A stretch of DNA of 41,241 bases from Oscillospiraceae bacterium. GTDB lineage: Bacteria; Bacillota; Clostridia; Oscillospirales; Ruminococcaceae. A program made the position numbers and the translations under genes. Location of the stretch: the NCBI GenBank assembly GCA_017829005.1, contig JAGAJF010000036.1, forward strand, positions 1 through 41,241, written 5' to 3'. The notes under the pieces are model-generated. The model had not been told where the DNA came from and searched no databases. It saw only the letters and a program-made list of their open reading frames with translations. Positions 13,918-38,466 of this stretch are shown here, piece by piece (the first letter of the stretch is position 1; each line of letters starts with the position of its first letter).

Positions 13918-15267
13918 GTGCGAAACATAGATTATTTTCCAAAAGTATTGCCTTTTTTGATATATATGATAAACTCTGACTGTGAAATACATTTGACAAT
14001 AAAGGATATCGCAAGGCTCTCGGGCTGTGCCGTAAGCACAGTTTCAAGAGCGCTGAATGACCACCCCGATGTGAATGCCGAAACCAGGGAACGCATATGC
14101 AGGATAGTAAAAGAAAACAACTACTGCCCCAACCGCAACGCAAAGCTTTTAAAGCAAACCTCGGGAAAAACTGTACTTCTCATTGTCAAGGGCAGCGCTA
14201 ATCTGTTCTTCACACCCATACTTGAGCAGATACAGTCCTCGGCAGGAAAAAAAGGAATATCGGTCACTGTGAGCTACATAAGCGAAAATGACAATGAGGT
14301 CTCCGAGGCGCTGCACCTGTGTGAAGAAATGAAACCCATTGGAATAATCTTTCTCGGCGGAAATATATGCATTTTTCAAAGGGATTTTGAAAGGCTGCAC
14401 ATTCCCTGTGTACTTTGCACAGCGTATGCGGGAAAACCGGGCTTTGCAAATCTTTCATCGGTCAGCGTAAATGACTTTCTGGGAGGCAGAGCGGCTGCCC
14501 TTAAGCTGTGTGAGCTTGGTCACCGCAGGATAGGGATACTTAGCGGCGACTACAAATCGGAAGGACCCTTTTGTGAACGCTTCCGAGGCATATGCGATAC
14601 TATGTCCGAATATGGAGTAACGGCTGTGGAGAAAGTGACCGAGATATACGAATTTCCCTTCAGGTCGGCATATGAAAAGGCGTGGAAGCTTGTTTCGGAG
14701 CATAGTGATATAACGGCGGTCATTGCTATGTCGGATATAATGGCGATAGGCGCTGTAAGGGCGTTCGGCGATATGAAGCTGAAAATTCCCGATGATATTT
14801 CAGTTATCGGCTTTGACGGGCTGGAGCTTGCGGATTTTTACACTCCCAGGATAACGACATTTCATCAGCCTGTGGACAAGCTTGCCGAGATAACGGTAAA
14901 AATGCTTATTGATATGATACCCAAGGCTCTCGATGAATCTGCCTATCTGGACGGTGCAACAAAGGCGCAGGTGTTCTTCAAGATAACTCTTCCACTTTCA
15001 AAGCCTATAATAGTTTACACTATCCTCACTTCCTTTATGGCACCCTGGGTAGATTACATCTTCCCCAGCATCATCTGCGGCTCGAATTACGACAGCTATA
15101 CCGTTGCGCTGGGAATGTTCAAAATGCTGGAAAGAGAATTTATCGGAGCATATTATACTCAGTTTGCGGCAGGTGCGGTGCTTGTATCGATCCCTATCGC
15201 AGCACTTTTTATTTCAATGCAGAAATATTATGTTGAGGGTGTAACAGGCGGCGCTGTAAAGGGCTGA
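13918..15267 (+). CDS. chimeric ORF: LacI-family regulator fused to C-terminal half of a MalG-type permease
   Basis: One open frame of 449 codons. The N-terminal part is a LacI-family regulator: helix-turn-helix LTIKDIARLSGCAVSTVSRALNDHPDV, then a periplasmic-binding-protein-like sensor through VIGFDGLELADFYTPRITTF. At about residue 333 (about nt 14911-14925) the sequence switches to an ABC sugar permease: the EAA loop LDESAYLDGATKAQVFFKITLPLSKP, membrane segments and a typical MalG C-terminus. The regulator's last 20-30 residues and the first half of the permease are missing. The likely origin is an in-frame deletion of a lacI-malE-malF-malG type locus. The start is uncertain: GTG 13918, ATG 13966 and TTG 13990-region all lack a good ribosome site. 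Confidence 0.85.
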   Translation: MRNIDYFPKVLPFLIYMINSDCEIHLTIKDIARLSGCAVSTVSRALNDHPDVNAETRERICRIVKENNYCPNRNAKLLKQTSGKTVLLIVKGSANLFFTPILEQIQSSAGKKGISVTVSYISENDNEVSEALHLCEEMKPIGIIFLGGNICIFQRDFERLHIPCVLCTAYAGKPGFANLSSVSVNDFLGGRAAALKLCELGHRRIGILSGDYKSEGPFCERFRGICDTMSEYGVTAVEKVTEIYEFPFRSAYEKAWKLVSEHSDITAVIAMSDIMAIGAVRAFGDMKLKIPDDISVIGFDGLELADFYTPRITTFHQPVDKLAEITVKMLIDMIPKALDESAYLDGATKAQVFFKITLPLSKPIIVYTILTSFMAPWVDYIFPSIICGSNYDSYTVALGMFKMLEREFIGAYYTQFAAGAVLVSIPIAALFISMQKYYVEGVTGGAVKG

Positions 15268-19635: not shown

Positions 19636-21108
19636 TTACGCAGCCACAGCCCTGTATCTCTCCCTGTTTACGACCTCTTCCATTACGCTGTCGGGAGTAA
19701 TGCTGCCCGACTTCACCATATCGAAGATGGCAGGGGAGAAGCCCGAGACAAGAGCAGCTCCCGTTTGCGAAAGTGTAACGGGGAATGCTGCTCCTCTGCT
19801 GCAAAGGTTCCAGAAAACAATTTCGGGAAGCTCATAGCCGAAAAGGGCAAATTTTCTCTTCATCGTCTCAAAAAGGGGCAGGCTGTTTCCGCCCTCAACA
19901 CAGCAGTCAAACTGCATATCCGAAAGAATGTACAGCCTTTTGGGCATATCCGTTTTCGGCACCTTGTTATTTACAGCAGTGCTCAGGATAAGCTCGAAAA
20001 CCGCTTCAAGGTCGGTGTTTGCACATTCGTTATAGGAAGCGCAGTATTTTGCTTTTTCAAAAATGTCATTTCCCTTGACCTTTACCAGACGGGGCTTTTT
20101 TGAAAAAGTTATGAAATGACCGCCGAAAGCGCCCTTGTTATGCTCTGCAAAGTAAATTCCAAGGGAAAGCGCAGCGTCAATGGGACGGGGCGTGTTTCCC
20201 CAGGTCATAGAGCCTGAGCCGTCAATGACCGCAATGGCATTTTCGTTTGATGCGCCATGGTCGGGCAGGCTGTTCCATGTAACATCAAGAGCAGTCCTTT
20301 CCTCAGCCGAAAGCTTTTCAACAAGCACCCTGCGGATAACCTCGTAAGGATAAAGAGTATCGGCGTGAAGCACAGCCTTTCCCTCCCTGACGCTGCTCAG
20401 ATATTCACAGTAACGCTCTTTGTCGTTTCGGATAAACGCCTTTTTGTACTTGAGCATTGCTCCCGAAGGCTGCTTGCCGTAATCAAAGGTGTAGTCCATA
20501 ACCCTGAGACGGTTCTCGGTGATGTCGGTGTATTTTCTCAGAGCGGAAAGCGTGAGACGATAGCTCTTTTCGTCCATTCCGAGAAGCTTGCAAAGTCTTT
20601 TTGCATTTTTCACCGTCTCCTTTGAGGAAGCATTCACCGAGGGAAGCCATTTTGCAAGGAGAGATACGGGCTTGCCCTCATTCATTCCCGAAATATCCTC
20701 CTCAAGCTGAGCCTTTATAACGGCGGCAGCCTCCTTTTCACAGGGAGTACCCATAAGAGTGCAGAGATCGTCAAATCTTCCGTATTCCGCAAAAAGGGGA
20801 ATGTTTTTCTTGACGCTTTCGGAAGCGGAAAATGCAAGGTGCTTCACCGCAATGCGGAAAAATCGCCTTTCGCCCAGTCCCCCTCTTACGTCCCTTGCAA
20901 AGAAGATTATCTTCATAGTCTTGTGGGGGTCTTCGGCGTATGCCCTTAAAACCGCTGTGCCAATTTCCTCCTCAGATGCATTTCTCATAGCCCCCGCCTT
21001 GAAAAACAGGTCGAGACAGTCGGAATGGGTAGATATATATGCCCTGCCGCCGTTTTCGGTACGGGTCTCGTTTGCCTTTGCTTTAAGCGCATTTAAAAAA
21101 TCAAACAT
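19636..21108 (-). CDS. Ro60-like protein: helical domain plus von Willebrand A domain (DUF2828-type)
   Basis: A 490-residue protein. Residues 1-280 are helical, with conserved-looking KIIFFARDVRGGLGERRFFR and LAKWLPSVNASS. Residues 290-470 form a vWA domain with a complete metal site: DGSGSM (Asp296, Ser298, Ser300), Thr365 in ANTDLEAV and Asp397 in ILSDMQF. A helical (TROVE or HEAT-like) domain followed by vWA is the Ro60/Rsr architecture, and I recognise the sequence as DUF2828-type. Ro60 proteins bind misfolded RNAs and Y RNAs. The ATG at 21108 has AAGGAG at 8 bp; 23 extra codons upstream would run into the RNA element at 21128-21207. It is downstream of rtcB on the same strand, separated by the RNA cluster. 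Ro60 function is inferred. Confidence 0.8.
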   Translation of the reverse strand: MFDFLNALKAKANETRTENGGRAYISTHSDCLDLFFKAGAMRNASEEEIGTAVLRAYAEDPHKTMKIIFFARDVRGGLGERRFFRIAVKHLAFSASESVKKNIPLFAEYGRFDDLCTLMGTPCEKEAAAVIKAQLEEDISGMNEGKPVSLLAKWLPSVNASSKETVKNAKRLCKLLGMDEKSYRLTLSALRKYTDITENRLRVMDYTFDYGKQPSGAMLKYKKAFIRNDKERYCEYLSSVREGKAVLHADTLYPYEVIRRVLVEKLSAEERTALDVTWNSLPDHGASNENAIAVIDGSGSMTWGNTPRPIDAALSLGIYFAEHNKGAFGGHFITFSKKPRLVKVKGNDIFEKAKYCASYNECANTDLEAVFELILSTAVNNKVPKTDMPKRLYILSDMQFDCCVEGGNSLPLFETMKRKFALFGYELPEIVFWNLCSRGAAFPVTLSQTGAALVSGFSPAIFDMVKSGSITPDSVMEEVVNRERYRAVAA

Positions 21109-21127
21109 AGTAACACTCCTTTTCAAC

Positions 21128-21207
21128 AAGACAGCTTTTACCGATAATATAACATCGGACAGGATTTGAACCTGCATTGACCAATTATGCTATGCTGTAA
21201 CTGTCTT
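21128..21207 (-). ncRNA. candidate Y-RNA-like element E (D-arm and T-arm, next to the Ro60-like gene)
   Basis: The closing helix AAGACAGTT (21199-21207) pairs with AGCTGTCTT (21128-21136) over 9 bp with one wobble. ACAGCA follows the 5' strand at once. Inside are a D-arm-like hairpin (GCAT, loop AATTGGTCA with G18G19-like GG, ATGC; 21174-21190), a T-arm (GCAGG, loop TTCAAAT, CCTGT; 21159-21175) and a hairpin CCGAT/ATCGG (21141-21158) placed like a capped acceptor stem. D- and T-stems share two bases, so both cannot be full length. There is no anticodon arm. It ends 19 bp before the Ro60-like start codon, so it could also act as a 5' UTR structure. Confidence 0.6.
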
Positions 21208-21221
21208 AATATTTTGCCGAC

Positions 21222-21294
21222 AAGGCTCCTTCCTCGCAGCGCCCTTAACGAGCATGTACTGCGTCCCATCGGAAATAATTGCTGACTGAGCCTT
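21222..21294 (-). ncRNA. candidate Y-RNA-like element D
   Basis: AAGGCTC (21288-21294) pairs perfectly with GAGCCTT (21222-21228). The next two positions would be tandem A-G/G-A mismatches, after which the 5' strand reads TCAGCA, matching the motif in the sister elements. Inside, TTCC/GGAA and then CGCAG/CTGCG can pair. No canonical T-loop is visible. It is weaker than elements A, C and E. Confidence 0.45.
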
Positions 21295-21308
21295 TGAATA
21301 AATTGGAC

Positions 21309-21462
21309 ACGGCTCATTATTATTTCTGCTATTCCCTTTTGCAAGGTCTGCGAGTCGAACGCAGGGTAAGCTGAAAGCAAGGTATGCTAAAAGCAAGGGA
21401 AGCTGAAAGCTTACCATAGCGCCTTGGAGATAATATTATCATACATTTGCTGTATGAGCCGT
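21309..21462 (-). ncRNA. candidate Y-RNA-like element C (T-arm and capped acceptor-like stem, long insert)
   Basis: A perfect 9-bp closing helix, ACGGCTCAT (21454-21462) with ATGAGCCGT (21309-21317), has ACAGCA directly after the 5' strand. Inside is a T-arm with a 5-bp stem CTGCG/CGCAG and canonical loop TTCGACT, followed by CCTT-GCAA-AAGG, an acceptor-like stem closed by a GNRA tetraloop. This is the same order as in element A. The T-arm is preceded by a 7-bp stem, GGTAAGC/GCTTACC, holding three 16-bp tandem repeats. No D-arm is clear. Confidence 0.6.
21365..21412. repeat. three 16-bp tandem repeats inside RNA element C
   Basis: Units at 21365-21380, 21381-21396 and 21397-21412 follow the pattern GG(T/G)A(A/T)GCT(G/A)AAAGC(A/T)(A/T). 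They lie in the stem-loop before the T-arm of element C and probably arose by local duplication that lengthened that arm. Confidence 0.7.
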
Positions 21463-21484
21463 TGATTTTGATTTGAAATTATAC

Positions 21485-21542
21485 AAGGCGCATTTGTGGT
21501 TTCACGTGACAGGTGAATATAAAATTTTGCTGTATGCGCCTT
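21485..21542 (-). ncRNA. candidate Y-RNA-like element B (short form)
   Basis: A perfect 9-bp closing helix, AAGGCGCAT (21534-21542) with ATGCGCCTT (21485-21493), has ACAGCA immediately after the 5' strand. The 40-nt interior can form TTCAC/GTGAA but has no T-loop or D-loop. At 58 nt it may be a minimal member that keeps the protein-binding helix but lacks the tRNA-like module. Confidence 0.5.
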
Positions 21543-21558
21543 TAAGTCATTATTGGTG

Positions 21559-21587
21559 ACAGCTTGTTTGTGTCGTTATCAAGCCGT
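21559..21587 (-). ncRNA. small hairpin F within the RNA cluster
   Basis: ACGGCTTG (21580-21587) pairs with CAAGCTGT (21559-21566) over 8 bp with one wobble around a 13-nt loop. The helix resembles the closing helices of its neighbours (5' ACGGC), but ACAGCA is absent. It may be a decayed family member or a processing signal. Confidence 0.35.
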
Positions 21588-21597
21588 CCGCCTGCTC

Positions 21598-21694
21598 ACG
21601 GTACCTTTTTTGATGCTCTGCCAAACTGAGCTACGGGTCTCCCCGACAGGATTCGAACCTGTGACACTCATCAAAATATTGCTGTAAATACCGT
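21598..21694 (-). ncRNA. candidate YrlA-like Y RNA, element A: circularly permuted tRNA mimic
   Basis: The closing helix ACGGTATTT (21686-21694) pairs with AGGTACCGT (21598-21606), 9 bp with two wobbles; ACAGCA follows the 5' strand. TTTTGAT/ATCAAAA (21670-21676 with 21608-21614) then sits where the anticodon stem would be. In transcript order come a T-arm (ACAGG, loop TTCGAAT, CCTGT), CGGG-GAGA-CCCG as an acceptor-like stem closed by a GNRA tetraloop, the linker TA equal to tRNA positions 8-9, and a D-arm (GCTC, loop AGTTTGGCA, GAGC). It is a tRNA with its ends joined and its anticodon stem opened. It begins 12 bp after the rtcB stop. Bacterial Y RNAs such as Salmonella YrlA mimic tRNA and are encoded with rsr and rtcB. 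Confidence 0.78.
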
Positions 21695-21705
21695 TCTGTG
21701 ATAGC

Positions 21706-22932
21706 TTATCCCTTTACCACGCCCACCGTAAACAGCTTTTTGACCGCTTCGGTGAGATCCTGCTGATTTGTCATGACCGTGTCAATGTCCTTGTAGGCAA
21801 AACGTGATTCCTCCGCAACATCGGATTTCTTGTTTTTTCCAAGAACAACATTGTTTGCCTTGAGGTCGTTTATCACCGTGTCAACGGCGAATTTCTGCAT
21901 CGCCGCAGTACGTGAGTAAAGCCGTCCCGCCCCGTGGGAGGAGGACATAAAGCTGTCGGGATTTCCCTTTCCTCTTACAATGTAGCTATATGAGCCCATT
22001 GAGCCTGGGATTATCCCCATCTCGCCCTCTGCCGCCCTGATGGCACCCTTTCGGTGAACGAAAACCTCTTTGCCGAAGTGGCTTTCAAGAGCGGCATAGT
22101 TGTGATGGCAGTTTATCTCATCGGAATAATGCGCCTCAAGCCCCGTGTATTTAAGCACATATTTGGAGAAAATCTCTCTCACCCTTCCGAGCATTGCCCC
22201 GCGGTTCTCGTATGCAAAATCCATTGAGAGCTGCATCCAGTCAAAATATCTCCGACCCTCGGCAGAGTCCGCAGGAAGAAAGGGGAGCCGCCACTCGGCA
22301 GGAACGGCGCTGTGCCATTTTTCGTTAAGCCTTGCCGCAATGCCGTTAAAATGCTCGCATACCCTGTAGCCGAAATTTCTGCTGCCCGAGTGGAGCATTA
22401 TGGTGCAAAGCCCGTTCTCGTCCTCCTGAAGCTCAATGAAATGGTTGCCGCCTCCAAGAGTTCCTACCTGAAAATATCCGTCAGAGATGTTACCAACAAG
22501 CTCGGGGTCGCTCTCGTATTTTGAAAGCTCCTCCTTTGCCCTGTCAAGAACAGCCGAGGGCTGAGGGAGCTTGTGATGAGCAAAGCCTGTGGGAATGTTT
22601 CTCAGGATATCTCCCACAATTGCCTGCAGAAGCGTACCGCTGCCCGTTATGGTCTCACGAAGCACCGAAACGGGGATATCCGTCTGGAGGAAAGCCATTC
22701 CGCAGCCGATATCCACCCCCACAGCATTGGGTATCACAGCCCCGTCGCAGGCAATGACGCCGCCTATGGGCATACCCTTTCCCGTGTGAGTGTCGGGCAT
22801 TAAAGCCGCCCATTTATATGTAAAGGGAAGCATTGCAATATGCTCAGCCTGTTCAAGGCAGCTTTCCTCTATGGTATCTCTTTCCGCCCATATCTTTATG
22901 GGAAATTTGTCATTAACATTATGCACGAACAT
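21706..22932 (-). CDS. rtcB: RtcB RNA ligase
   Basis: A 408-residue ligase that joins RNA 3'-phosphate or 2',3'-cyclic phosphate ends to 5'-OH ends using GTP and Mn2+, repairing or splicing cut tRNAs. Metal and catalytic residues visible: VDIGCGM (Asp74, Cys77), GGNHFIEL (His164), HSGSRN (His181), CHHNYA (His276) and the guanylated His333 in SSHGAGR. From ATG 22932, with AAAGGA 9 bp upstream, the length is 408 residues, matching the well-known E. coli enzyme. Earlier ATGs give poorer spacing. It shares its strand with the RNA cluster and the Ro60-like gene and is divergent from the WYL operon. Confidence 0.96.
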   Translation of the reverse strand: MFVHNVNDKFPIKIWAERDTIEESCLEQAEHIAMLPFTYKWAALMPDTHTGKGMPIGGVIACDGAVIPNAVGVDIGCGMAFLQTDIPVSVLRETITGSGTLLQAIVGDILRNIPTGFAHHKLPQPSAVLDRAKEELSKYESDPELVGNISDGYFQVGTLGGGNHFIELQEDENGLCTIMLHSGSRNFGYRVCEHFNGIAARLNEKWHSAVPAEWRLPFLPADSAEGRRYFDWMQLSMDFAYENRGAMLGRVREIFSKYVLKYTGLEAHYSDEINCHHNYAALESHFGKEVFVHRKGAIRAAEGEMGIIPGSMGSYSYIVRGKGNPDSFMSSSHGAGRLYSRTAAMQKFAVDTVINDLKANNVVLGKNKKSDVAEESRFAYKDIDTVMTNQQDLTEAVKKLFTVGVVKG

Positions 22933-22971
22933 ATCGCTCATTCCTTTCATCTGTTTGCTTTCGATGTTCCC

Positions 22972-23000
22972 ATTATAATCCAAAAAATCCCGCCCGTCAT
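22972..23000 (-). promoter_or_regulatory. promoter of the rtcB-RNA-Ro60-like unit
   Basis: Minus-strand TATAAT (22972-22977) lies 17 bp from ATGACG (22995-23000). The -10 is consensus and the -35 weak, which fits an activated promoter. It lies back to back with the WYL operon promoter, the -35 boxes about 30 bp apart. Confidence 0.6.
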
Positions 23001-23031
23001 TTAAAAAAGTCTGCGAACACTCTCAGGCGTA

Positions 23032-23060
23032 TTGAAAAGCAAATTAAAATGTGATATTAT
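23032..23060 (+). promoter_or_regulatory. promoter of the helical-repeat/WYL operon
   Basis: TTGAAA (23032-23037), a 17-bp spacer and TATTAT (23055-23060), followed by AAAGGAGG and ATG at 23088. Confidence 0.7.
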
Positions 23061-23087
23061 GGTAATACAGCAAAGGAGGACAGATAA

Positions 23088-24635
23088 ATGAAATTATTCG
23101 ACATTATATTCGGGAAAAAAGAAGATGTAAAACGTGTACATCAATACGCCGAGAACCTTGCATACGGATATGAAGAAAATCTCTATCCTGCGCTTTATGA
23201 GCTATATAAATATGACAGCAAAGAAATAAGGACAGTGGCAAAAGCCTGCACGGATATGATCGGAGACAAAAACGGCAGGGAGCTTGCGGAGTATCTGTAC
23301 GATCTGAGAGTTGACTCTGACTATATTTACTATTACCGTAATATCAAGGAAAAGGACTACGGCAGATACAAGGAAATATGCGGAGAGGATTTTCCCTCTC
23401 TCCTTGCAGTGGGAATGTGCCACCGGGACGGCTATATCAGAATGAACAGCGTAAGGCATATGGGACAGTATCCGAAATATCTTCCTCTGATACTTTGCTT
23501 GTATAACGACTGGGTGCCAAATGTCCGCAAAGCAGCGGAAAAGGCTTTTTGTCAGGCAGCCCAAAAGGCAAATATCATAGCCATAGCCTCCGCCGCTGTC
23601 GAGATACCCGAACTCAGAAAATGCGGCAGACGTGAGACTGAAAGTTTCTCAGCGGCAGAAGATATTATGAGGAAAAGGCTGTCAAAGGAGCTTGATATAT
23701 CCGAACTCAGAAAAATAGGGATATCCCCCCAAAGCAGGTTTCCCAAAAGCCGCCGCCAAAAAATATACGAAGTCCTCATATCGGAATGTCTCATATCTTC
23801 CGAATGTGCGGAGTATATCATCGAAAATGAAAAGGGCGTCATAAGAGACCGCACCGAGCTTATGTATATCCGTAACTTTGACCTGCCCCGCAGCAGGCTC
23901 ACTGAATATCTGAGAAGCAAAAAACCCGTCATAAGGCGGCTTGCGGCGCAGAAGCTCATTGATACATACGGGCTGTGGGAGGGAGCGGAGGAAATGCTCC
24001 TTGACAGCACCCGAGCCGTAAGGGAGCTTATAATATATAATTTCCGGAAATCAAAGCCCGACTTTGACATTTCTTCATACTGCAAAGCACACCTGCCTGA
24101 CCCCGCTGCCATAATGGCATTAGGAGAAGCATACTGCCCCGAGGGAGAAGAAATTGCCCTCGAATATGTAAACTCCGAAAACTCAAAGCTCGCAGCGGCG
24201 GCAGTGTTTACCCTTTGCAGGCTTGCTTCGGACAAATATGATAAGCTTTACTATAAAATGATATCAGACTCCCGCCTGAAAGCGGCAAAATCGGCGTACA
24301 AGGCGTTTGTGTCCTGCGGCGGATATGTTCCCCCCGAACAGCTTTATGAGGATATCCTGCGCACATCGGGGGAGCCGTATCTCTGCAGGCGTTATGCCTC
24401 TCTCCTCTGCCGTCCGTCACAGGGAATATGGGAGGCAATGCCGCAGCTTATAAGGCTGTACAGCTTCCCCGATGAATGCATCCGCAATATGGTGAGACGT
24501 ACAATACTTGCAAGAAGCTGCTATTTTATAGGCAGCAGCGACCTCAGAGAGAAAATAAAGTCGGAGCTTTCCTTCTCGGAGGACGTACCCGACGAACTAA
24601 AAAAAGTCATATTATCTCAGATAGAACGGAAGTGA
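23088..24635 (+). CDS. HEAT-like helical-repeat protein, first gene of WYL operon
   Basis: A 515-residue soluble protein built of successive helical pairs with HEAT-like character, such as WVPNVRKAAEKAFCQAA, KPVIRRLAAQKLIDTYG, STRAVRELIIYNF and NSKLAAAAVFTLCRLA. No catalytic motif is visible. It is rich in Arg and Lys on the repeats, which would suit RNA or protein binding. AAAGGAGG precedes the ATG. It is 4 bp before the first WYL gene and divergent from rtcB, so a role in the RNA-repair island is likely by context only. Confidence 0.75.
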   Translation: MKLFDIIFGKKEDVKRVHQYAENLAYGYEENLYPALYELYKYDSKEIRTVAKACTDMIGDKNGRELAEYLYDLRVDSDYIYYYRNIKEKDYGRYKEICGEDFPSLLAVGMCHRDGYIRMNSVRHMGQYPKYLPLILCLYNDWVPNVRKAAEKAFCQAAQKANIIAIASAAVEIPELRKCGRRETESFSAAEDIMRKRLSKELDISELRKIGISPQSRFPKSRRQKIYEVLISECLISSECAEYIIENEKGVIRDRTELMYIRNFDLPRSRLTEYLRSKKPVIRRLAAQKLIDTYGLWEGAEEMLLDSTRAVRELIIYNFRKSKPDFDISSYCKAHLPDPAAIMALGEAYCPEGEEIALEYVNSENSKLAAAAVFTLCRLASDKYDKLYYKMISDSRLKAAKSAYKAFVSCGGYVPPEQLYEDILRTSGEPYLCRRYASLLCRPSQGIWEAMPQLIRLYSFPDECIRNMVRRTILARSCYFIGSSDLREKIKSELSFSEDVPDELKKVILSQIERK

Positions 24636-24639
24636 TAAC

Positions 24640-25881
24640 ATGGGCGGCTTTTCGGAGCTTATCAAAAATTTCGACAAAACAAGAGATTACATCAGAGATT
24701 TTTTCATCTACGGCTTTAAGGTGAGAAACGAATTTACGGGCAAAAGCTCCCGTACCTATGACGATGAAAAACGGCGTGCGGAAAGCTGGCTGGGAGATTT
24801 TTTCCGCTATGACAGCACAAGGCGGGGCAAGCAGGTGTCCATCACCGTTGACAGCGGACATATAAACGAAAATCCGCTTTACAGCGCCTATTATTCCAAA
24901 AGCTTCACCGACAATGATATAAAGCTCCATTTTATGCTTATGGATATTCTTGACGGTAAGCTTATGAATGTCCGAGAGATAACCGAAACCCTTAACAGCA
25001 CCTACGGACAGCTTTTTGACGAGCAGACCGTGAGAAACAAGCTTAAAGAATACGTAAGCGAGGGAATTATCCTCAGCGAAAAGAAGGGGCGGACGGATAT
25101 ATTCACCCTTTCCCCGGATACCGCCGAAAGCTTTTTTTCACGGTATGAGGGGCTTGAGGATGCTGTGAAATTCTTTTCCGAATCCCCCGAATTCGGCATA
25201 GTGGGAAACAGCATATTAAAGACCGCAGGGCTTACAAATGACATTTTCCTTAACAAGCATAACTACATCGTCCACACCCTTGAGGACACGGTGCTGCTTG
25301 ACCTTCTTAAAATAATGGAGGAAAAGCGGTTTGCAGTGATAACCAATTTCGGCATAGGGGGAAAAGCCACCGAGACCGAAGGTGTACCCCTTAAAATATA
25401 TTCCTCGTCCCGGACGGGACGAAGATATGCGGTGATGTATCTCCCGAAATATAAGCGGTTCAATTCATTCAGGCTCGATTACATAAAAAGCGTGCGTTCC
25501 CTTGGCGTTTACGGGGAATACGACGACATTGCCCGAAAGCTTTGCCGCTGCGAGGAAAAATGCTTCGGCGTTTCCTTCGGGGAAAGAAGCGGCGAGAGTG
25601 CGGGAGGAAGCTTCCGAATGGTTCTGAGGATAAACGAGGAAACAGAGGGCTTTGTACTTGAACGGCTTGAGCGTGAAAAGCGGTGCGGCAGTGTCCGTAA
25701 GATAGACCGCGACCTTTTTGAATACACCGTCTTGGTCTTTGACATCAACGAGATGATGTCATGGGTCAAGACCTTTATCGGCAGAATAGTTTCAGTAGAA
25801 AGCACCAATAAACGGATAACCGACAAGCTGTACCGTGATATTGCCCGAATGAAACGAATTTACAGCAGAAAGGAGGAGTGA
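24640..25881 (+). CDS. WYL-domain protein with winged-helix region, probable transcriptional regulator
   Basis: 413 residues. Residues about 85-160 look like a winged helix (LMDILDGKLMNVREITETL, then FDEQTVRNKLKEYVSEGIILSEKKG). Residues about 215-300 have the WYL pattern (FAVITNFGIGGKATETEGVPLKIYSS, RRYAVMYLPKYKRFNSFRLDYIKSV), followed by a C-terminal extension. WYL domains bind ligands, often nucleic acid or nucleotides, and occur in regulators of stress and defence operons. Spacing to neighbours is 4 and 3 bp. It is a plausible sensor controlling the divergent rtcB promoter. Confidence 0.8.
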   Translation: MGGFSELIKNFDKTRDYIRDFFIYGFKVRNEFTGKSSRTYDDEKRRAESWLGDFFRYDSTRRGKQVSITVDSGHINENPLYSAYYSKSFTDNDIKLHFMLMDILDGKLMNVREITETLNSTYGQLFDEQTVRNKLKEYVSEGIILSEKKGRTDIFTLSPDTAESFFSRYEGLEDAVKFFSESPEFGIVGNSILKTAGLTNDIFLNKHNYIVHTLEDTVLLDLLKIMEEKRFAVITNFGIGGKATETEGVPLKIYSSSRTGRRYAVMYLPKYKRFNSFRLDYIKSVRSLGVYGEYDDIARKLCRCEEKCFGVSFGERSGESAGGSFRMVLRINEETEGFVLERLEREKRCGSVRKIDRDLFEYTVLVFDINEMMSWVKTFIGRIVSVESTNKRITDKLYRDIARMKRIYSRKEE

Positions 25882-25884
25882 GGC

Positions 25885-26865
25885 TTGAAGCTTTTTTCAG
25901 AAGTTTACGGAGCATATTTCCGCTGTACCGAAAGGATACTTTCCGAAGGGGAAGTGACCGAAAAAAGGCTTCGGGAAATTGTTACCCAAAGCGCATTCAG
26001 AGACTCTCTGCTTTTCATTCCCGAAAAGCTCATTCCCGATAAATCGGGCAATTCTCCATGGGGACTGCTGAGACGCAGTGAAAGCGGCAGCCTTTGTTCC
26101 ATACTTTCCAAAGCACCCCCGAGAATAATCACAAGCCTGCAGAAAAGCTGGCTAAAAGCAAAGCTAAATGACCCGAAATTCCGTCTCTTTCTCTCAGATG
26201 AGGATATAGCCGCCCTTTCCCAGCGGTTGAAAGATGTGAGACCCTTGTATAACAGGGAATATTTCCGTGAATTTGACCGCTTCACCGACGGGGACGATTA
26301 TGACGACCCCCATTACAGAGAGGTGTTCGGCACTGTCCTCAGAGCAGTGCGGGATAATGAGCTGTTATCCCTTGAGCTTATCTCCCGCCGAGGGAAAAGA
26401 ATAACGAAAAATGCCCTTCCACTGAGGATAGAATACTCAAGGAAGAATGATAAATTCCGTGTATACTGCCTTACCCTTCCCAAAAGGGAGGAGTATCTTT
26501 TTAACATCGGCAGGATAGAAAGGGCTGTTTTAACAGGAAAGCATATCACAACGGAAACAGACCTCGAGGAATTTTTTAACAGGAGACGGTGCGAAAAGCC
26601 CGTTACCGTAGAGGTAAGCGGCGAGCGGAATGCTGTGGAGCGGTTTATGATGGAGTTTGCCGCCTTTGAAAAGCGAAGCGAGCTTGACCTTGCCACAGGG
26701 AAATGTCACGCCTCTGTTTATTACGATATGCAGGACGAAACGGAGCTTCTTATAATGCTTCTTGGCTTCGGACCCGTTTTAAAGATAACAGGCCCCGAGG
26801 ATTTCCTTGAAAAGGTCAGGGAGCGGGTGGAAAAGCAGTATGAGCTGTTTTATGGAAATGAGTGA
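25885..26865 (+). CDS. second WYL-domain protein
   Basis: A 326-residue protein with a WYL-like core (NELLSLELISRRGKRITKNALPLRIEYSRKNDKFRVYCLT) and the usual C-terminal extension (GFGPVLKITGPEDFLEKVRERVEKQYELF). I see no clear N-terminal winged helix, so it may work as a partner of the first WYL protein. It starts at TTG with AAAGGAGG about 8 bp upstream. It is the last gene of the operon and is followed by a terminator. Confidence 0.78.
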   Translation: MKLFSEVYGAYFRCTERILSEGEVTEKRLREIVTQSAFRDSLLFIPEKLIPDKSGNSPWGLLRRSESGSLCSILSKAPPRIITSLQKSWLKAKLNDPKFRLFLSDEDIAALSQRLKDVRPLYNREYFREFDRFTDGDDYDDPHYREVFGTVLRAVRDNELLSLELISRRGKRITKNALPLRIEYSRKNDKFRVYCLTLPKREEYLFNIGRIERAVLTGKHITTETDLEEFFNRRRCEKPVTVEVSGERNAVERFMMEFAAFEKRSELDLATGKCHASVYYDMQDETELLIMLLGFGPVLKITGPEDFLEKVRERVEKQYELFYGNE

Positions 26866-27816: not shown

Positions 27817-29370
27817 TTACTTTGCGTACTCAATAGCTCTGCTTTCTCTGATAAGATGAACCTTGATCTGACCGGGATAATCCATCTCGTTTTCGATCTT
27901 GGCAGCGATCTCTCTTGCAACGAGAGCCATTTTTTCGTCGTTGATCTGCTCGGGGACAACCATAATTCTGACTTCACGACCGGCCTGGATAGCGTAGGAT
28001 TTCTCAACGCCCTCGTAGGAGGTGCATATTTCCTCAAGCTTCTGGAGACGTTTGATGTAGTTCTCGTAATTCTCGTTTCTTGCCCCGGGTCTTGCGGCGG
28101 AAATTGCGTCAGCCGCCTGAACCAGAGCCGCAACAACGGTCTTTGTCTCAACATCGCCGTGGTGAGCCTCAATAGCGTGAATGACCTCGGGGCTTTCCTT
28201 GTACTTGCGGCAGACGTCAACGCCTATCTGAACGTGAGAGCCTTCGATCTCGTAGCTGAGCGCCTTGCCGATATCGTGAAGCAGACCTGCACGCCGTGCA
28301 AGATTTGCGTCAACACCAAGCTCGGAAGCCATAATGCCCGCCAAGTGAGCCACCTCGATGGAGTGGTCGAGAACGTTCTGACGATAAGAAGTTCTGTATC
28401 TGAGTCGTCCGATAAGACGAACAAGCTCGTGGTTTATGCCGTGAACATTGGTCTCAAGGATAGCCCTTTCGCCCTCCTGCTTGATACGGTGTTCAACCTC
28501 GCGCTTTGCCTTGTCCACCATTTCCTCAATTCTTGCAGGGTGGATACGTCCGTCCGCAATAAGCTTCTCAAGAGCAATTCGTGCAACCTCACGTCTTGCA
28601 GGGTCAAAGCAGGAAAGGGTGATAGCCTCGGGGGTGTCGTCAATGATAAGCTCAACGCCTGTGAGAGTTTCCAGAGTGCGGATATTTCTTCCCTCACGTC
28701 CGATAATTCTTCCCTTCATCTCGTCGCTGGGAAGGGGAACAACGGAAACTGCCGTCTCAGCCACCTGATCGGCAGCGCACTTTGCGATTGCAAGGGAAAT
28801 AAGGTTTCTCGCCTTGTCCTCGCACTCGTCCTTGAGCTGAGTTTCAAACTGCTGGACCTTGAGAGCCTTCTCGTGAACCAGCTCATTTTCAAGCATAGAG
28901 AGCAGGTGCTCCTTAGCCTGATCCATAGTGAACTGGGAAATTTTCTCCAGAATTTCCATCTGGGAGTGCTTGATCTTGTCAGCCTCCTCAAGCTTTTCGT
29001 CAGCGGCCTTCAGCTTTTTCTGGAGCTGTTCGTCCTTTTTTTCCAGGGTGTCGTTTTTCTTGTCAAGGTTTTCTTCCTTCTGCTGGATACGTCTTTCCTG
29101 ACGGGAAAGCTCGTTTCTTCGCTCCTTGATCTCTTTTTCAAGCTCGGTGCGGCTCTTGTGTATCTCGTCCTTAGCTTCTACAAGAGCAATTTTCTTTTTG
29201 CTGTCGGCTTCCTCTTTGGCAGCTTCGATGATGCGCTCAGCCTCTTTTTCGGCGGAGCCTATGGCGGATTCTGCCTGAGATTTGCGGTAATTTATGCCCG
29301 CCTTAAAGCAGATAAAGCCCGAAACAGCCGCAGCCACAACAAATATGACCACATAAATGGCATACTGCAA
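27817..29370 (-). CDS. rny: ribonuclease Y
   Basis: A 517-residue membrane-bound endoribonuclease that starts decay of many mRNAs in Firmicutes. Order: N-terminal membrane helix ([18 protein letters not shown]), long coiled coil rich in Glu and Lys (about 30-200), KH domain ([15 protein letters not shown], about 215-280), and HD domain with metal motif HDIGKA (about 360) after [14 protein letters not shown]. Two TTG codons start the frame; the second (29370) has the better 8-bp spacing from GGAGG, so a non-ATG start is used. It sits behind a leader of about 340 nt. Confidence 0.96.
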
Positions 29371-29717
29371 CAAAAAAACCTCCTTTTCATGATACTAAAA
29401 ATATGGTAATCGCTTCGGAGGTCGGTGAAGCTCATAAATATTAAATAAACCGCTTGTTTGGGGAAAGTACCCTGCTTAAAATAATTTTTACCGAAAACGT
29501 ATATTTTTAAATAAGCCAATAATAATATCCCGAAAACTGAGCGACCGAATAAAAACGGAACGGACGGCTCATAATATATATAAACTTCAGCTATCCGCAG
29601 GGATATGCGGAAAACGGCTTGAAGCGATAATGTAAAAGCAGCTTCTATAAATGGCAGAGGGCATTTTTTTAATATCCTGCCGCCCGCCGAAAATATTTTT
29701 ACTGCAGACACAATATT

Positions 29718-38339: not shown

Positions 38340-38341
38340 TC

Positions 38342-38451
38342 CTCATCTCTCGGAAAACTTCCGCAGGAATTAGCACCTTACTTACGCCTCAGCTTGGCGC
38401 AATCAGGTTGCCGGGCTTCACAGGTCCAGTACCTCAGCCGCTCTTGATAAG
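38342..38451 (-). promoter_or_regulatory. SAM-I (S-box) riboswitch aptamer
   Basis: The minus strand reads CTTATCAAGAG, then GGCTGAGGTACTGGACC and TGAAGCCCGGCAACC, the S-box core with its kink-turn. The P1 helix is CTTATC (38446-38451) with GATGAG (38342-38347). When SAM binds, the downstream terminator should form and metK is switched off. Confidence 0.95.
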
Positions 38452-38466
38452 GTTTTATCAATTGGT

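Follow-up and report, generated by a model that had tools for sequence, protein, structure and literature searches.

The 41,241 nucleotides of Oscillospiraceae bacterium DNA analysed here (GCA_017829005.1, contig JAGAJF010000036.1; this whole stretch is called the window) carry, at positions 19636–26865, a gut-bacterium locus in which an RNA ligase and a Ro60-fold protein are accompanied by five small-RNA modules sharing one common end. We propose, with a probability of roughly two in three, that this locus is an inducible RNA-care operon around a second branch of Ro60/Y-RNA-type ribonucleoproteins (RNPs), joined in Bacillota to RtcB. The minus strand holds, in this order, the gene of the RtcB RNA ligase, a gap of 597 bases (21109–21705) and the gene of a DUF2828/DUF7788 protein, and a HEAT-repeat gene and two WYL-type genes are divergent from them. 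A first-pass annotation of the same DNA had described rtcB and a Ro60-architecture gene flanking about 600 bp of structured elements on the same strand; we found the genes as placed there, and five modules between them.

RNA modules with a common end

All five window modules lie on the minus strand, and each has a closing stem of its own, 7–9 bp long and followed by G, with the motif ACAGCA (TCAGCA in module 4) two bases past the seven-base 5' arm. They all fold with the closing stem intact, at shuffle z-scores of -2.2 to -3.9. Module 1 (21597–21694) is a YrlA-like permuted tRNA mimic, module 2 (21484–21542, stem AAGGCGC/GCGCCTT-G) is of a short hairpin type, module 3 (21308–21462, 155 nt, stem ACGGCTC/GAGCCGT-G) carries a T-arm, module 4 (21221–21294, stem AAGGCTC/GAGCCTT-G) is of the GGGACGCAG type and module 5 (21127–21207, stem AAGACAG/CTGTCTT-G) is of an 'elbow' type, with TTGG upstream of its T-arm. 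The T-arms of modules 1, 3 and 5 agree with the three elements with tRNA-like arms noted in the first-pass annotation. No terminator-like site was found between the modules on the minus strand.

Module 1 matches the Rfam family YrlA (RF02553) with 43.8 bits (E 2.2e-8, 711 bases searched), under the curated cut-off of 69, so that it is not a called member, and its parts follow the YrlA order: a closing stem formed by the 5' and 3' ends, then T-arm, acceptor-like hairpin and D-arm. This arm order was not seen in modules 2–5, which are without a D-arm. No Rfam family reaches its cut-off anywhere in the gap, and the remaining matches there (MIR5286, snR85 and a group II intron, E 2.3 to 2.8) were taken as chance. 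Genuine tRNA genes were also considered and rejected, since ARAGORN finds no tRNA in the window.

The same end recurs in relatives. Among 136 DUF2828 relatives found in genome contigs, the best 80 were kept with their flanks, and 84 non-redundant gaps (the window and its relatives, 86 minus two duplicates) were compared. These gaps contain 319 modules on the DUF2828 strand and one on the other; a first strict scan over 111 gaps, some loci being counted twice, had given 382 and 0, against 1.5 per shuffled set. The cleanest control selects sites by ACAGCA alone and only then demands a partner: in 83 bacterial arrays, a perfect 7-bp partner followed by G was present at 255 of 353 sites, whereas swapping arms between sites left such a partner at 5.4% on average and 8.5% at most (locus L112 was omitted from this test because its gap is a tRNA cluster). 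There are 42 different stems and, in an alignment (A2) of 62 short modules, all seven stem pairs vary on both sides, the rows having been selected for pairing. Conserved helices with compensatory changes are therefore present in the gaps of relatives, where their absence had been named in the first-pass annotation as a ground for abandoning the idea. Strict modules, 43 to 243 nt long (median 69), occur in 82 of the 83 arrays, and the bacterial arrays counted lie upstream of DUF2828 and in the same direction. Two loci deserve separate mention: L048, labelled Alistipes yet grouping within Ruminococcus, was taken as a mis-binned contig, and at L255 (6219–6734), on a Subdoligranulum replicon of 247 kb that is filed as a plasmid, DUF2828 is preceded by five modules.

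DUF2828 as a predicted Ro60-fold protein

The DUF2828/DUF7788 gene (19636–21108, minus strand) encodes 490 residues. In the AlphaFold model, the protein consists of a helical-repeat ring and a vWA domain, which is the Ro60 fold (Foldseek, VIA) and bears out the Ro60 architecture assigned by the first-pass annotation; the highest-ranking fold matches of this model include Ro60 structures with misfolded RNA. Residues D296, S298 and S300 of the DxSxS motif, which we take to be the metal-site motif of the vWA domain, are invariant in 49 of 49 DUF2828 members. At the sequence level, PF05731 (TROVE) has no match in the bacterium's own genome and none, at E <= 1, for the window DUF2828 protein, and it is not among the matches listed for the 49 members (25 of 40 families). 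The DUF2828 profile has no PDB hit at E <= 1. Direct comparison of the DUF2828 and TROVE profiles with hhalign gave a probability of 80 (E 1.4e-5, 254 columns), with only six rows on the TROVE side. For phage members, likeness to Ro had already been annotated, as 'Ro-like RNA binding protein' in mycobacteriophages and as the Rsr-like CKA15_055 of a Listeria phage (PMC12282133).

Co-occurrence of modules and DUF2828

The 62 rows of A2, module 2 among them, served to build R1, a covariance model of short modules that also detects module 4, which the first strict scan had missed. At E 1e-4, R1 matches 26 of 396 genomes of the window's family, all of them among the 37 genomes with DUF2828, and none of the 359 genomes without it. 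The hits are partly by construction, since 10 of these genomes supplied at least 11 of the 62 rows; the absence elsewhere is not. The scan also under-counts, missing 11 of the 37 DUF2828 genomes, because a short-module model fits the long types poorly and 14 candidates were scored per genome. A further R1 match in the window's own genome (C43:11211, E 0.005) is probably chance, as it sits, by eye, on an inverted repeat.

Across 393 Bacillota genomes, DUF2828 is present in seven and TROVE in eight, never both. Modules were found in five of six distant DUF2828 loci, the sixth showing variants by eye, and no module array was found in six TROVE loci from the eight genomes, where two isolated pattern hits occur, one inside the TROVE gene of L169. 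The modules were therefore rejected as companions of any Ro-type gene. In three loci of another family (L163, L164 and L165, from genomes of one to three contigs), DUF2828 and an array stand beside a tRNA-Ser gene, with no RtcB or WYL match in 13–14 kb; this arrangement resembles an island that has integrated at the tRNA gene.

Phages and viral loci

DUF2828 matches 680 of 50,697 phage records and 4 of 72,556 plasmids. From IMG/VR, 118 DUF2828 relatives were obtained and 80 kept, and these loci carry 93 exact modules on the DUF2828 strand and one on the other. A module lies within 2.5 kb of DUF2828 in 51 of the 80 (100 modules near, 14 far and 0 inside the gene), and in the partner test 94 of 443 sites are paired, against 0.5% after swapping and 1 of 206 on the other strand. 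In the portions of 14 named phages that were covered, at least two modules were found in nine: FADO (four), Moostard (three), Felix O1 (four), wV8 (four), A511 (three), CPX (two), PEf771 (four), S-CoN_Ph5 (three) and vB_BcoS-136 (six). One was found in phiM12 and, within the same portions, no clear module in nt-1, phiAS5, phiKSUM and an Erwinia phage. The modules of Felix O1 and most of those of vB_BcoS-136 lie among tRNA genes, and one of the Felix O1 modules has the fold of a permuted tRNA mimic, although Rfam reports nothing for it at E 0.05. In PEf771 and Moostard, some modules overlap YrlA matches, which score 47.8, 37.9 and 34.3 bits; 47.8 is the best score seen elsewhere and is under the cut-off. 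In A511, an annotated tRNA splicing ligase is encoded 1.3 kb downstream.

For Listeria phage CKA15, the available text reports a DUF2828 protein in purified virions and strong transcription of nearby non-coding regions, and its authors suggest Y RNAs nearby (PMC12282133). We assign CKA15_055 to the DUF2828 family by gene position and DNA match to A511, and three modules are found at 25,290–25,551, just upstream of its gene. The pair of array and protein is hence common in phages and peculiar neither to Firmicutes nor to RtcB. The multi-RNA array that the first-pass annotation had proposed as a Firmicutes layout is real; its restriction to that group did not hold.

Module tips, tRNA mimicry and RtcB

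On the common end, the modules carry different tips: a short hairpin, GGGACGCAG...CTGTG, the 'elbow' (TTGG before the T-arm), a small T-arm, a YrlA-like T-then-D arrangement and a tRNA body. The last, found in Lachnospiraceae and some others, has the normal arm order with the module stem in place of the acceptor stem, and ARAGORN reports tRNA-like hits inside modules of L019, L026, L098, L102, L103, L110 and L111. Judged by eye, the anticodon loops of these bodies differ and some are not of seven bases, so no single anticodon is imitated. A simple search for D- and T-arms in the 83 arrays gave permuted order in seven loci and normal order in five. An eighth permuted hit, in L162, was not counted as it spans two neighbouring elements; further permuted cases are present in L006 and L013. 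A T-loop is present in 62 of 257 strict modules, the majority being without any.

The element of L162 (6610–6836) comprises two tRNA-like bodies of normal order within which the module stem closes, the 3' half standing before the 5' half, and is an unpermuted counterpart of YrlA. The tRNA shape is thus mounted on one anchor in at least three ways: the stem is attached at the acceptor side in L098 and L102, at the anticodon side of a permuted body in the window and Felix O1, and inside an unpermuted body in L162. Cutting the L162 form in its stem loop and joining its acceptor ends would yield the permuted form; a nuclease together with RtcB could perform this conversion, so that RtcB may make or remake the module RNAs.

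The window rtcB was listed as an open reading frame at 21706–22983 (minus strand), its true start probably being the ATG near 22950, as judged by eye. The protein has a full-length Pfam match (E 3.7e-109), its profile matches RtcB structures in the PDB (E 4e-58), and D91, C94, N180, H181, H198 and H350, presumably the active-site residues, are invariant in 18 of 18 sequences. Two kinds of RtcB accompany DUF2828, upstream or downstream of it, with about 70% or more and about 30% identity to that of the window. Excluding loci whose flanks were too short to establish that RtcB is absent, a relaxed search found T-arms in 43 of 45 gaps beside RtcB and in 3 of 18 gaps without it. A stricter search gave 39/45 and 2/18 (strands 61 versus 1), and the first count, which included L112, had given 38/46 and 1/18.

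WYL regulators, promoter and predicted operator

Divergent from rtcB, on the plus strand, are a HEAT-repeat gene (23088–24635, Pfam HEAT), WYL1 (24640–25881; WYL domain and a putative winged helix) and WYL2 (25885–26865; WYL-like and WCX). The first-pass annotation had counted all three as divergent partners, of which the WYL pair is conserved and the HEAT gene is not. Matches to the latter were confined to the window and two relatives, L033 and L034 (tblastn, E 1e-6, over the loci then collected); for this reason, it was rejected as a component of the system and is regarded as a local passenger. Both WYL genes occur in 49 of 80 named loci, many others lacking full flanks; they are mostly divergent, and on the same strand in more distant loci. 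With weak scores, the WYL domain is recognised in 11 of 22 WYL1 proteins and WCX in 19 of 21 WYL2 proteins; PADLOC gives a WYL match for WYL2 (E 1.8e-13), and, with regard to a DNA-binding winged helix, 4 of the 22 WYL1 proteins match PaaX and 2 match Penicillinase_R.

A motif, GTTCGCAGATTTTTTTA.ATGAT followed by an extended -10, was identified upstream of rtcB or of the array. In the window, the predicted operator GTTCGCAGACTTTTTTAAATGA lies at 22997–23018 and the -10 box TATAAT of the rtcB–array–DUF2828 promoter at 22972–22977, both on the minus strand. The -10 stands at an identical offset in 29 of the 39 operator sites that have a -10 box (the 39 include one off-locus site, L133). The searched pattern, TTCGCARNNTTTTTTNNATGA, has a single copy in the own genome, at 22997–23017, and is present in 16 of the 396 family genomes, 11 with DUF2828 and five without; the reversed pattern occurs in none of the genomes listed. 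Two genomes without DUF2828 place the operator near related genes: beside WYL1 and RtcB at a contig end in G181, and 1.4 kb from a WYL pair in G267. The WYL pair and the conserved promoter belong to the bacterial version of the system, and WYL1 and WYL2 would bind the predicted operator. Seven operator sites lie away from DUF2828; of the five whose context was covered, two, L132 and L133, are accompanied by a -10 at approximately the expected distance, counted by eye at L132. These two sites of genome G019 (L133, 4733–4753, minus strand; L132, 5228–5248, plus strand) may mark further members of the WYL regulon.

Other features of the window

Close to the locus is an RNase Y gene (27817–29373, minus strand), a candidate processing enzyme whose proximity is possibly coincidence. 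A SAM (S-adenosylmethionine) riboswitch was found at 38340–38453 (minus strand, 78 bits). The open reading frame at 13918–15267 (plus strand) joins a LacI-type regulator (Pfam, residues 27–342) to the latter half of an ABC sugar permease (326–439) and could reflect a genuine fusion, a deletion or a join made during assembly.

Discussion

In the mechanism that we propose, the pair of WYL regulators would sense nucleic-acid damage and switch on a promoter whose operator is fixed (GTTCGCAGANTTTTTTNNATGAT, followed by the extended -10); the bacterial operon is probably damage-induced. A single transcript would be expressed and yield RtcB, the Ro60-fold DUF2828 protein and, after cutting, five separate small RNAs. 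DUF2828 would grip each RNA by its common end, the 7-bp closing stem with ACAGCA, leaving the differing tips to decide what each particle meets. The tRNA-shaped tips (elbow, permuted tRNA and full tRNA body), which point to tRNA repair or tRNA protection, may bring or block tRNA-handling enzymes, and the plain hairpin tips may do other work or gate the ring. Where RtcB is nearby, the particle would most likely help in sorting broken tRNAs and sealing them again; in phages, whose copies of the pair often adjoin tRNA genes, it would most likely guard the phage tRNA supply. With slightly more doubt than belief, we extend this to the suggestion that DUF2828 and the ACAGCA modules form a separate and very widespread class of Ro/Y-type RNP in bacteria and phages, distinct from TROVE and its Y RNAs, with an RNA anchor of its own and exchangeable RNA tips on one protein, and with RNAs that RtcB may make or remake.

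Several observations weigh against this proposal. No clear nearby module was found in 4 of the 14 named phages and 29 of the 80 IMG/VR loci. RtcB is absent beside 18 of the 63 bacterial loci with enough flank and matched near only one of the 80 IMG/VR loci, and repair therefore cannot be the sole role. The link between T-arms and RtcB has exceptions in both directions (T-arms without RtcB in L044, L072 and L101; RtcB without T-arms in L099 and L108), and the relaxed T-arm search found six T-arms on the wrong strand against 74 on the right one. On the tree, the six starred pairs give 3.2 the same way and 0.1 the other way (sign test p 0.125 or more), a test that cannot reach significance with no more than six independent supported pairs. 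Searches of the PDB with the WYL1 and WYL2 profiles returned no WYL structure. The operator pattern is present in 5 of the 359 genomes without DUF2828, and its exact form is absent from 26 of the 37 with it. Lastly, the most abundant RNA region of CKA15, given as 26,236–26,727 in the available text (PMC12282133), holds no ACAGCA module; it was rejected as a module, the CKA15 modules being at 25,290–25,551, and this region (26236–26727 in the phage record, L270) would be a separate RNA of another kind.

Other explanations were considered for the same data. The modules could act in cis rather than as free RNAs, forming a folded leader with which DUF2828 regulates its own mRNA or that of rtcB. 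Their position upstream of DUF2828 in the same direction in bacteria, the missing terminator-like sites between the window modules and the arrays that precede a second-type RtcB which itself precedes DUF2828 (L136, L139) would fit. We think this rather improbable, given that 44 of the 100 nearby viral modules are downstream of the gene, among them all three of the mycobacteriophage Moostard and the four that Felix O1 has among tRNA genes after the gene, and that a single leader needs no three to nine modules with differing tRNA-like tips. A series of decayed tRNA genes, or a mobile repeat, without joint function is a highly improbable account of the gap: the T-loops and D-arms are tRNA-like and L112 has a real tRNA cluster in its gap, but the stems differ and yet stay paired, the strands stand at 319 to 1, R1 finds nothing in the 359 genomes without DUF2828, and the common end is also present in phages.

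Two further explanations overlap with the RNA-care operon that we favour. Ro60 binds misfolded RNA, and Y RNAs have been proposed as gates over its ring. By analogy, DUF2828 might bind other RNAs, such as broken or misfolded tRNA, with the modules gating the ring and RtcB as a bystander in the same stress operon. The fold matches to Ro60 with misfolded RNA and the occurrence of DUF2828 and modules without RtcB are in its favour; gating alone leaves the variety of tips and the association of T-arms with RtcB unexplained, and we regard it as unlikely. Similarly doubtful is that the tRNA-shaped modules are decoys for toxin or phage anticodon nucleases or for tRNA-modifying enzymes, which the Ro-fold protein would only stabilise. 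Several phage copies adjoin tRNA clusters, several mimics retain an anticodon arm with differing loops, and competitive inhibition was raised for YrlA by Hughes et al. (PMC7790460); nevertheless, a T-loop is present in just 62 of the 257 strict modules and, according to the available part of the same paper, the tRNA-like domain of Salmonella YrlA is itself no substrate of the nuclease (PMC7790460).

Comparison with known systems is here made with the accessible parts of the cited papers. Like the rsr-yrlBA-rtcBA RNA-repair operon of Salmonella (PMC7790460), the locus combines a Ro60-fold protein, Y-type RNAs including a tRNA mimic, RtcB and an inducible regulator, the last being predicted here. 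It differs from that operon in having DUF2828 in place of the TROVE protein Rsr, five ACAGCA-end RNAs in place of YrlA and YrlB, and a WYL pair in place of RtcR; no RtcR or RtcA was found among the 12 window proteins scanned, in line with the different regulators foreseen in the first-pass annotation. The Deinococcus Rsr/Y RNA/PNPase particle (RYPER; PMC8394870) likewise has a Ro-fold ring and a tethered RNA that mimics tRNA, features predicted here, but its protein is of the TROVE family and its partner is the nuclease PNPase. The T-arm, acceptor-like hairpin and D-arm on a closing stem are shared with YrlA RF02553, whereas all matches are below the curated score, most modules carry other tips and the ACAGCA anchor is absent from the printed RF02553 consensus. 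The Ro-like proteins of mycobacteriophages and CKA15_055 belong to the same DUF2828 family, and in the available text no description was found of modules, a common end or a bacterial operon for them (PMC12282133). The WYL/WCX pair, on a promoter with a -10, an unusual upstream element and no standard -35, recalls the mycobacterial heterodimer PafBC, which is switched on by single-stranded DNA (PMC11804915), although WYL1 and WYL2 are too distant in sequence for a PDB match. No description of the array or of its ACAGCA anchor was found in the literature searched; the RNA-repair review of Burroughs and Aravind and papers on bacterial Y RNAs may hold one.

In the bacterial systems compared, one or two Y RNAs stand beside a TROVE protein, and here DUF2828 is accompanied by its own recognisable class of RNAs. 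DUF2828, filed in Pfam as of 'unknown function', thereby gains a lead to its function and the RNAs gain a search rule, and the pairing in many phages suggests a large, overlooked class of RNA-care particles. Strains of Ruminococcus flavefaciens and phages of B. subtilis and M. smegmatis are cultured or laboratory-amenable systems in which possible roles of Ro particles in tRNA repair and in phage–host conflict could be approached.

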